A DNA stretch of 55,262 bases from Winslowiella iniecta (GTDB lineage: Bacteria; Pseudomonadota; Gammaproteobacteria; Enterobacterales; Enterobacteriaceae), in the NCBI RefSeq assembly GCF_001267535.1, contig NZ_JRXE01000002.1, positions 38,058 to 93,319 on the forward strand, read 5' to 3'. Position 1 is the first letter of the stretch; each line of letters opens with the position of its first letter. Below the pieces are notes generated by a model. The model worked only from the letters and a program-made list of their open reading frames with translations, was not told the DNA's origin and did not search any database. The position numbers and the translations under genes were made by a program. Below are positions 2,478 through 4,696 of this stretch, piece by piece.

Positions 2478-2649
2478 GGTAGATAATACTCCAGATAATA
2501 ATATGAATTATAGTGTATCAATCTCAGGCTTAATGGTCATGTAATAACGTTATCAGGCAGGGTAATATTATTTGCGACGCGACTCGATTTTTGACTGTTT
2601 ATTAATGAAGTGGCTAATGACGACAGTAAATAGATTGCGGTAGCATTCT

Positions 2650-2728
2650 GTCGGGTGCCTGAAGCTGTTTGCTGCAGGCATTATTCAGGAGCAGACAGAA
2701 GAAGGCCCCAGGTCAATTTTCATTAACC
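2650..2728 (-). ncRNA. sok: Candidate Sok-like antisense RNA, cassette 1
   Basis: The segment around 2713-2729 matches the sok-target region of R1 hok mRNA (AATTTTCATTAACC), and the sequence 5' of it is conserved in all three units. In known systems a short antisense RNA is transcribed leftwards over this part and blocks translation of the leader frame. The promoter could not be identified by eye, so strand and extent follow the family model. Confidence 0.4.
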
Positions 2729-3011
2729 TGAGGCCACTCCTGCACATCCAACAATGTCAGGATAGCCTCTTAACAGCAGATTTGCAATGTAGGTTAAGAT
2801 GCCAAAAAAATATTTATTACCACGGCTGATTGTGCTTTGTCTGACAATACTGGCCAGCCTGTGGTTGATACGTGACAGTCTGTGCGAAGTCCGTATTACT
2901 CATGGCAGTAATGAATATGCGGCGTTCTTAAACTACGAAGTTAAGCGCTAACCGCGGGCGGGGGAAACCCCGCCTGATTATTGTGGGTGTCGGGGCTTCG
3001 GGCACCCTTTT
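2653..3011 (+). ncRNA. hok mRNA folding elements of cassette 1 (tac, fbi and terminator)
   Basis: The 5' segment GGGTGCCTGAAGC (2653-2665) can pair with GCTTCGGGCACCC (2995-3007) over 13 bases with one G-U wobble. This is the long-range tac-fbi closure that keeps full-length hok mRNA translationally silent in known systems. The same 3' segment also forms a local hairpin (GGGTGTC with GGCACCC) followed by TTTT, which would serve as the terminator. Equivalent pairs lie at 3141-3153 with 3481-3493 and at 3625-3637 with 3966-3978. The transcript ends are inferred. Confidence 0.6.
2799..2951 (+). CDS. hok: Hok/Gef-family type I toxin, copy 1 (intact frame, weakened ribosome-binding site)
   Basis: A 50-residue membrane toxin. 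A short basic N-terminus (MPKKY) is followed by a hydrophobic segment (LLPRLIVLCLTILASLWLI, about residues 6-24) and the Hok C-terminal signature RDSLCEVRITHG...EYAAFLNYEVK, including the conserved LCE cysteine and the AAF-x2-YE motif. Hok proteins insert in the inner membrane and collapse the membrane potential. The frame is intact, but the sequence before the ATG reads TGTAGGTTAAG, where copies 2 and 3 have TGGAGGTTAAG, so the Shine-Dalgarno core is damaged. The same G-to-T change puts a TAG right behind an upstream in-frame ATG that stays open in the other copies. Confidence 0.88.
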   Translation: MPKKYLLPRLIVLCLTILASLWLIRDSLCEVRITHGSNEYAAFLNYEVKR

Positions 3012-3137
3012 AAATTATTATTGATTTATTTACCGTCAGTTTTTTTGTGGCGGCTAATAATTCCGGGTTGCCGCAGGTTTTTGCTATTTACCCGCAAACC
3101 ACTAATGACGGGGATGAAAAGTTTGCGGTAGCATTCT

Positions 3138-3216
3138 GTCGGGTGCCTGAAGCTGTTTGTTGCAGGCATTATTCAGGAGCAGACAGAAGAAGGCCCCGGG
3201 TCAATTTTCATTAACC
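3138..3216 (-). ncRNA. sok: Candidate Sok-like antisense RNA, cassette 2
   Basis: Same conserved sok-target segment as cassette 1 (TCAATTTTCATTAACCT at 3201-3217). The antisense strand and limits are inferred from the family model. Confidence 0.35.
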
Positions 3217-3285
3217 TGAGGCCACTCCTGAACACCAACAATGTCAGGATAGCCTCTTAACAGCAGATTTGCAATGGAGGTTAAG

Positions 3286-3437
3286 ATGCCAAAAAATATT
3301 TATTACCACGGCTGATTGTGCTTTGTCTGACAATACTGGCCAGTCTGTGGTTGATACGTGGCAGTCTGTGCGAAGTCCGTATTACTCATGGCAGTAATGA
3401 ATATGCGGCGTTCTTAAACTACGAAGTTAAGCGCTAA
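3286..3437 (+). pseudogene. hok: Hok-family toxin, copy 2, frameshifted in an A-tract
   Basis: This copy has only six A residues after ATGCC where copies 1 and 3 have seven. The single-base loss shifts the frame at codon 4 and gives MPKNIYYHG followed by a stop. Downstream of the shift the remaining Hok sequence is preserved, with one Asp-to-Gly change (RGSLCEV instead of RDSLCEV), so the gene was recently intact. The Shine-Dalgarno (GGAGG, 5 bases before the ATG) is good. Because the lesion is in a homopolymer next to the start codon, slippage could restore the frame. Confidence 0.88.
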
Positions 3438-3621
3438 CCGCGGGCGGGGGAAACCCCGCCTGATTATTGTGGGTGTCGGGGCTTCGGGCACCCTTTTAAA
3501 TATTATTGATTTATTTACCGTCAGGTTGTGAGTGGCGGTAAATAACTCGGGTTGCCGCAGGTTTTTGCTATTTAGCCACAAACCACTAATGACGGGGATG
3601 AAAAGTTTGCGGTAGCATTCT

Positions 3622-3700
3622 GTCGGGTGCCTGAGGCTGTTTGCTGCAGGCATTATTCAGGAGCAGACAGAAGAAGGCCCCAGGTCAATTTTCATTAACC
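3622..3700 (-). ncRNA. sok: Candidate Sok-like antisense RNA, cassette 3
   Basis: Same conserved sok-target segment (TCAATTTTCATTAACCT at 3685-3701) upstream of the intact third hok copy. Extent inferred from the family model. Confidence 0.4.
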
Positions 3701-3769
3701 TGAGGCCACTCCTGCACAACCACAATGTCAGGATAGCCTCTTAACAGCAGATTTGCAATGGAGGTTAAG

Positions 3770-3922
3770 ATGCCAAAAAAATATTTATTACCACGGCTGA
3801 TTGTGCTTTGTCTGACAATGCTGGCCAGCCTGTGGTTGATACGTGACAGTCTGTGCGAGGTGCGTATTACTCATGGCAGTAATGAATATGCGGCGTTCTT
3901 AAACTACGAAGTTAAGCGCTAA
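3770..3922 (+). CDS. hok: Hok/Gef-family type I toxin, copy 3 (fully intact)
   Basis: A 50-residue Hok protein differing from copy 1 by one residue (LTMLAS instead of LTILAS). It has seven A residues after ATGCC, a strong GGAGG Shine-Dalgarno 5 bases before the ATG, a hydrophobic membrane segment, and the LCEVRITHG and AAFLNYE signatures. It is the only one of the three copies with both an intact frame and an intact ribosome-binding site, so it is the likely functional toxin gene. A GCGGGG-type stem and the GCTTCGGGCACCC fold-back/terminator follow it. Confidence 0.92.
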   Translation: MPKKYLLPRLIVLCLTMLASLWLIRDSLCEVRITHGSNEYAAFLNYEVKR

Positions 3923-4009
3923 CCGCAGGCGGGGAAAACCCCGCCTGTTTATTGTGGGTGTCGGGGCTTCGGGCACCCTTTATTATATTTCATTTAAATA
4001 ATGTTAATG

Positions 4010-4447
4010 CTAATTAATAAAGCCGCCCGCGCGCAGGCGAATAATCGTGTTGTCCGGTGCGTAAACCATAGCAGTATTCAGCGGGTGAAAATTAAGATGC
4101 TGATAAAATTCTGTTTTATCCAGCATGGCGTAAATAATAACTTTGCCAAACGGTGAAAGTGTATCAAGAATCGACTGCATCAATTGCCGTCCGTAGCCTT
4201 TCCCCTGGAATGCCGGATCGATAACCACATCAGAAAGATAAGAACTCCAGGTCAGATCACTGATTGCATGGGCAGTTGCCATCAACTTACCTTCATTAAA
4301 GCCAAACCAGCTGAACTGACTGTGTTGATAAGCACGCTTTAAGCTGGTGATGTCACGAGCACCAAGGCCGGCTTTTTCAATCAGCTCTGCCAGTTCCTGC
4401 CAGTTAACCATCGGATTATCATTCTGGGTTAAAAGTACAAAACTCAT
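4010..4447 (-). CDS. GNAT-family N-acetyltransferase
   Basis: A 145-residue GNAT protein. The acetyl-CoA pyrophosphate-binding motif FQGKGYGRQL follows the typical strand SDVVIDPA in the middle of the protein, and the C-terminal half has the usual YQHLNFHPL element. The substrate is unknown. I chose the ATG at 4447 because AGGA lies 8 bases upstream; an ATG 3 codons earlier (4456) sits directly on that Shine-Dalgarno. The gene lies between the hok array and ypfM, where E. coli has no such gene, so it may belong to the accessory insertion. Confidence 0.85.
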   Translation of the reverse strand: MSFVLLTQNDNPMVNWQELAELIEKAGLGARDITSLKRAYQHSQFSWFGFNEGKLMATAHAISDLTWSSYLSDVVIDPAFQGKGYGRQLMQSILDTLSPFGKVIIYAMLDKTEFYQHLNFHPLNTAMVYAPDNTIIRLRAGGFIN

Positions 4448-4636
4448 TATTATCATCCTTATATTTTTAATGGGATGGCATAATTAATCACTGATTTAGC
4501 AACTTTATTCAACTGTAAATTTACGACGAGTAAAATTTATTGTGCTGATTGATATGACAGTATCATTATCTTTCTGAATACATTTTCCTGAACAAAAAAT
4601 AAGCGTATACTGGCCTCAATTATAAGAGAGGCTATC

Positions 4637-4696
4637 ATGATCGATTTGGAACTGGGGAACTGGAAAGACTTTATCGAAGCAATGTTACGTAAGTAA
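4637..4696 (+). CDS. ypfM: Very small protein YpfM (19 residues)
   Basis: ATG at 4637 encodes MIDLELGNWKDFIEAMLRK and stops at TAA (4694-4696). It matches E. coli YpfM (also 19 residues, ELGNWKDFIEVMLRK) almost perfectly and sits at the same place beside acrD. A GAGAGG Shine-Dalgarno precedes the start. Its function is unknown. The sequence conservation across a divergence that has altered the surrounding DNA indicates real coding. Confidence 0.9.
   Translation: MIDLELGNWKDFIEAMLRK

Follow-up and report, generated by a model that had tools for sequence, protein, structure and literature searches.

A tandem array of hok/sok-descended units beside yffB in which no unit has a mok start codon

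The window, by which we mean the whole stretch of 55,262 nucleotides that was analysed, carries three head-to-tail hok units beside yffB, and the new feature of this site is that a start codon for the leader frame mok is absent from all eight units found there in four species. The probable explanation is that a type I toxin-antitoxin locus of the chromosome, descended from hok/sok, underwent tandem duplication in this lineage and has partly decayed. The descent of the three units from hok/sok is right. A mok frame is one of the features by which canonical hok/sok modules are defined, and since none of the units has a start for it we class them instead as variant loci of the Hok/Gef family, descended from hok/sok.

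Results

The array lies within 2615-3982 and consists of three units of about 485 bp, with start-to-start spacings of 484-488 bp. Each unit has a match to RF01794 (Rfam sok; 2653-2801, 3141-3288 and 3625-3772) that scores 99-103 bits (gathering score 59), and each has a match to the Hok_Gef profile (PF01848; cut-off 22). The profile search that an earlier, sequence-only reading of this DNA had proposed recovered copies 1 and 3 as intact ORFs (57.5 and 56.3 bits; Table 1) and copy 2 as a fragment only, of 39 aa and lacking an ATG (E 9.5e-13, 48 bits). With direct repeats and both matches in every unit, albeit a fragment in copy 2, that reading's claim of three consecutive hok-type units is borne out. 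A whole-genome search returned no other Hok matches at E <= 0.1. The RF01794 model, named sok, matches the hok mRNA strand and not the Sok-encoding strand, as it also does in plasmid locus L114 and in L070-L072; it therefore describes the mRNA leader.

The array is flanked by yffB and a GNAT acetyltransferase gene. Its earlier placement between yffB and ypfM is correct at the yffB border, but the GNAT gene intervenes before the ypfM-like ORF. Read by eye, a GNAT gene lies at the matching place in G020 and G031 and was not seen there in G018.

Table 1. Positions of array elements and downstream neighbours in the window
Feature	Position	Strand	Basis or remark
Copy 1 presumed hok promoter (TAATGAC ... 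TAGCAT)	2615..2646	+	position, conservation
Copy 1 tac-like 5' element	2653..2665	+	predicted pairing with 2995-3007
Copy 1 presumed Sok gene	2704..2787	-	-35 TTGCAA 2787..2782, 17-nt spacer, -10 TATCCT 2764..2759
Copy 1 terminator-like stem of presumed Sok gene	2735..2704	-	in terminator listing
Copy 1 CTG at mok start position	2740..2742	+	frame open until 28 nt beyond hok start
Copy 1 mini-ORF ATG TCA GGA TAG	2754..2765	+	overlaps presumed Sok -10
Copy 1 hok, 50 aa, intact	2799..2951	+	Hok_Gef E 9.9e-16
Copy 1 fbi-like 3' element	2995..3007	+	predicted fold
Copy 2 tac-like element	3141..3153	+	predicted fold
Copy 2 presumed Sok promoter	3246..3274	-	-35 TTGCAA, 17-nt spacer, -10 TATCCT
Copy 2 hok, broken by frameshift near start	3286..3437	+	9 codons from ATG
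Copy 2 fbi-like element	3481..3493	+	predicted fold
Copy 3 tac-like element	3625..3637	+	predicted fold
Copy 3 presumed Sok gene	3676..3758	-	-35 TTGCAA 3758..3753, -10 TATCCT 3735..3730
Copy 3 terminator-like stem of presumed Sok gene	3707..3676	-	in terminator listing
Copy 3 hok, 50 aa, intact	3770..3922	+	Hok_Gef E 2.5e-15; leader frame from CTG closes before hok
Copy 3 fbi-like element	3966..3978	+	predicted fold
GNAT acetyltransferase gene	4010..4456	-	between array and ypfM-like ORF
ypfM-like ORF	4637..4696		downstream of GNAT gene

The gene yffB is present in all 37 genomes of the genus, and hok accompanies it in four of them. The comparison of copy number at the locus that the sequence-only reading had called for gave three units in the window genome (G000, an assembly of 92 contigs, which could affect unit counts), one in G018, two in G020 and two in G031. 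For this comparison, 30 yffB loci were fetched and hok was sought within 1.5 kb; the other seven genomes were judged by coordinates and have no hok near yffB. The YffB proteins of the four carriers are 100, 92, 84 and 83% identical to that of the window, and the next is at 77% or less. Since the carriers are those with the YffB most like the window's, the locus fits a single clade in which copy number has been changing.

Tandem groups, defined as same-strand hok matches with starts no more than 1.2 kb apart, occur in relatives as well. Among the 150 best-scoring matches listed for the family sample, at least 17 of 124 groups are tandem, eight of them with three or four units, and in the genus sample (all 55 matches, window array included) tandem groups account for 11 of 42, spread over 8 of the 19 hok-bearing genomes. 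The tandem pairs, triplets and one quadruplet in these samples do not support the earlier view that chromosomal hok genes usually occur singly and that a triplet is unusual. One unit of another tandem pair (L077, G007:C6:190761) is interrupted at the membrane segment of the toxin. A megablast search of E. coli genomes with the array and its near flanks gave no match, and a plasmid search gave four partial matches only. No description of tandem hok arrays or of hok without a mok start was found in the literature searched, which included few subscription papers and is weak evidence of absence.

In plasmid R1, translation of hok needs translation of mok, as stated in the relevant part of a review (PMC4147584). 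A mok start was scored wherever a start codon lay 44-70 nt ahead of hok, was accompanied by a Shine-Dalgarno-like stretch and opened a frame of six codons or more; the sample comprised 79 hok units found by protein motif in the fetched loci, a subset of all hok matches. An ATG, GTG or TTG was found in none of the eight units at the site versus 64 of the 71 units elsewhere, or 44 of 47 when only units with a leader box are counted. Fisher's P for 0/8 versus 44/47 is 1.4e-7, a value that ignores relatedness and is not usable as a probability, the eight units belonging to one clade and representing few independent events. The usual start position is occupied by CTG in five units and by CGA in three, and copy 1 and G018 are the only units in which the frame from this position extends beyond the start of hok. 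Both of these open-leader units have hok in frame; in the other six the leader frame closes before hok, and five of those have hok out of frame. The sixth, copy 3, has an intact hok and no usable mok frame. The claim that the units bear all landmarks of Hok loci thus fails on two counts, as no unit has a mok start codon and the toxin frame of copy 2 is broken. All eight units do contain a mini-ORF, ATG TCA GGR TAR, in a stretch that overlaps the presumed Sok -10.

Other sampled hok loci of G020 and G031 retain the mok ATG, and therefore the loss tracks the site and not the species. We rejected the idea that loss of mok is exclusive to the site, because 7 of the 71 other units also lack a mok start and three of these (L010, L025 and L015) look like real hok; the remaining four are a fragment (L022), a chance motif match (L034, minus strand) and two units with odd leaders (the second unit of L092, and L104). 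In L010, L025 (G030) and L015 (G033) there is no mok start at the standard position, and a TTG lies about 91-93 nt upstream instead.

The presumed signals for an antisense RNA are mostly kept. On the strand opposite the leader, all three window units have TTGCAA, 17 nt and TATCCT, and across the site a -35 of TTGCAA or TTGCAT, the 17-nt spacer and TATCCT occur in seven of eight units, the eighth (G031 copy 1) having a changed -10. The sequence AGGATAGCCTCTTA is indeed present in all three window units, but rather than the leader box for which it had been taken it is the reverse complement of the presumed Sok -10 and part of the spacer. Every one of the eight units, across all four species, has TAATGAC and TAG[CA]AT ahead of its 5' element. 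A consensus promoter scan of the window listed neither hok nor Sok promoters, and both assignments rest on position and conservation. Terminator-like stems of the presumed Sok genes were listed for copies 1 and 3 and none for copy 2, out of 5 terminator-like sites in all against a mean of 1.8 in shuffles.

The complementary 5' and 3' ends noted earlier are supported by folding, which predicts tac/fbi-like pairing in all three window units. The element GGGTGCCTGAAGC pairs with GCTTCGGGCACCC through 12-13 pairs in the full-length fold of each unit and through 14 in a two-strand duplex. For copy 1, the fold has z = -6.05, and none of 100 shuffles was as good. The same pairing appears in the minimum-energy full-length folds of all eight units. 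A single changed base in the ends of copy 3 keeps the pairing as G-U, and one-sided changes likewise keep it in G020/G031; no two-sided compensatory changes were seen across the eight units, and the pairing thus lacks compensatory proof. When the RNA is trimmed, the predicted partner of the 5' element becomes a GGCCCC run adjacent to the Sok target in five of eight units, and other sequences take that role in copy 3, G018 and G031 copy 1.

A 50-residue toxin had been read in every unit. This stands for copies 1 and 3, and it does not for copy 2, whose ATG is put out of frame by a frameshift in an A-tract right after the start; the remaining toxin frame is undamaged and has no in-frame ATG. Across the site hok is out of frame in five of eight units, and the units elsewhere start in frame in 69 of 71 cases. 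The offset is of the same type in both copies of G020 and both copies of G031, and for this reason an assembly or sequencing error, considered for the frameshift of copy 2, is unlikely to explain all cases.

Selection on the toxin was assessed over the 45 codons after the A-tract with a simple neutral model in which the expected nonsynonymous fraction is 0.76. Copy 1 of the window differs from G018 by 4 nonsynonymous and 8 synonymous changes (P = 0.002) and from G020 copy 1 by 13 and 14 (P = 0.0018), and G018 differs from G031 copy 1 by 14 and 17 (P = 0.0002); such comparisons have branches in common and cannot count as independent. Because the counts depart from the neutral model, we conclude that the toxin was under selection for some of the time, if not all, over which the clade has evolved. 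The conserved frame of copy 1 versus G018 speaks against simple decay in those two lineages. Among the G020 and G031 copies themselves, the nonsynonymous and synonymous counts are 1/3 (P = 0.046), 7/5 (P = 0.14), 6/4 (P = 0.21) and 2/0 (P = 1.0), and these out-of-frame copies give no clear signal of selection, three of the four comparisons not rejecting neutrality.

Near the toxin end, all eight units, including the intact copies 1 and 3 of the window, carry TACG (a tyrosine codon followed by G), which matches the motif that has been reported in hok genes for mRNA editing by TadA. Hok genes are reportedly mentioned in a paper about bacterial mRNA editing.

Discussion

How might such an array work, if it does? 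In the account that we hold to be probable, pairing of the 5' and 3' ends would lock each unit mRNA in an inactive, stable form, and once the 3' end is trimmed the leader would take up a new fold in which the Sok target lies exposed. Made from the opposite strand, Sok RNA would bind the leaders of all units, which are nearly identical. We infer that the units are transcribed and processed, that they silence one another and that their product is toxic. Copy 1 is most likely the most complete unit and, having an intact hok and a leader frame open from CTG, would be the likeliest source of any toxin still made. Copy 2, whose start codon does not lead in frame into a full toxin, might serve mainly as an extra source of Sok, and at the least both it and copy 3 would contribute Sok, whose targets are nearly identical.

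The four species offer a natural series at one site, with 3, 1, 2 and 2 units, some intact and some broken, from which an order of loss can be proposed. In a birth-and-decay cycle, tandem duplication may have been followed by loss of the mok start and then of the hok frame, the Sok signals being mostly kept. Counting against this account are the conserved toxin frame of copy 1 and G018, the intact hok that copy 3 keeps despite its lack of mok, the different switching in the trimmed folds of copy 3, G018 and G031 copy 1, the absence of the hok and Sok promoters from the consensus scan, and the possible effect of assembly on the unit counts. Overall, the locus looks mainly like a known system that is amplifying and decaying.

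An alternative, which we regard as possible yet clearly less likely, is that the units are a functional variant independent of mok. Hok would be translated from its own Shine-Dalgarno sequence, or coupled to a leader that is CUG-started or three codons long, and Sok would block ribosome entry upstream. There is a precedent for control of this standby type in tisB/istR, where the antitoxin blocks ribosome entry upstream. The conservation of the toxin frame across the clade despite the missing mok starts would fit such a variant, as would the frame open from CTG in copy 1 and G018 and the mini-ORF in every unit. On the other hand, most units at the site have lost the hok frame, the selection signal may be older than the loss of mok or stem from a mok that starts with CUG, and overlap with the presumed Sok -10 alone could conserve the mini-ORF, although G031 copy 1 retains the mini-ORF despite its changed -10. 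We give slightly less credence to the broader proposal that a clade without a mok AUG controls a still-selected toxin in some other way (CUG leader, mini-ORF or standby), with the out-of-frame copies as buffering sources of Sok.

It is rather improbable that the array is a dead relic that yields no toxin from any unit and persists by drift. The universal absence of the mok start, the broken frames and the G020/G031 comparisons compatible with neutrality would all be expected of a relic, and the review notes degenerate hok/sok copies in chromosomes alongside many that look intact (PMC4147584). However, the intact copies show a conservation signal, and the hok promoter motif and fold-back ends are kept, as is the Sok -10 in seven of eight units. 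Three complete, functional hok/sok modules, as the sequence-only reading had it, are very improbable, for the anatomy of copies 1 and 3 agrees with that reading but no copy has a mok start and the broken frame of copy 2 contradicts it outright. Least probable of all is a -1 ribosomal slip by which the out-of-frame units would make toxin and frameshifting would set its output: all five are offset at one A-tract just after the start, a -1 shift leads into the toxin frame, a Shine-Dalgarno sequence lies a short way upstream and one G020/G031 comparison leans to conservation (the 1/3 pair), but A-tracts are mutation hot spots, nearly all units elsewhere (69/71) start in frame and the other three comparisons do not lean that way.

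The locus also offers a direct test of whether coupling to mok is indispensable for a chromosomal hok.

The array resembles hok/sok of plasmid R1 and chromosomal hok in its Hok_Gef toxin, sok-family leader, long fold-back mRNA and presumed opposite-strand Sok-type signals, and differs from them in being tandem, in having no mok ATG, GTG or TTG and in having one broken toxin frame. The best plasmid DNA matches (69% over 58-59% of a unit), on two plasmids of Candidatus Fukatsuia symbiotica, share the leader, Sok box and Hok; in contrast to the array, they occupy one place per record at the sensitivity of the search and have a mok ATG in frame into hok. Although their toxins are of another family, the LDR repeats of E. 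coli with ldr/rdl also form three tandem type I toxin-antitoxin units, as described in the pertinent part of PMC4147584. Parallels in arrangement are the head-to-tail hok triplets of G228, G108, G069, G304, G278, G291 and G019 and the quadruplet of G417 among the matches listed, which lie elsewhere than the yffB site as far as checked. The sampled units of the tandem groups in G228, G108, G069 and G019 retain the mok ATG, unlike those of the window.
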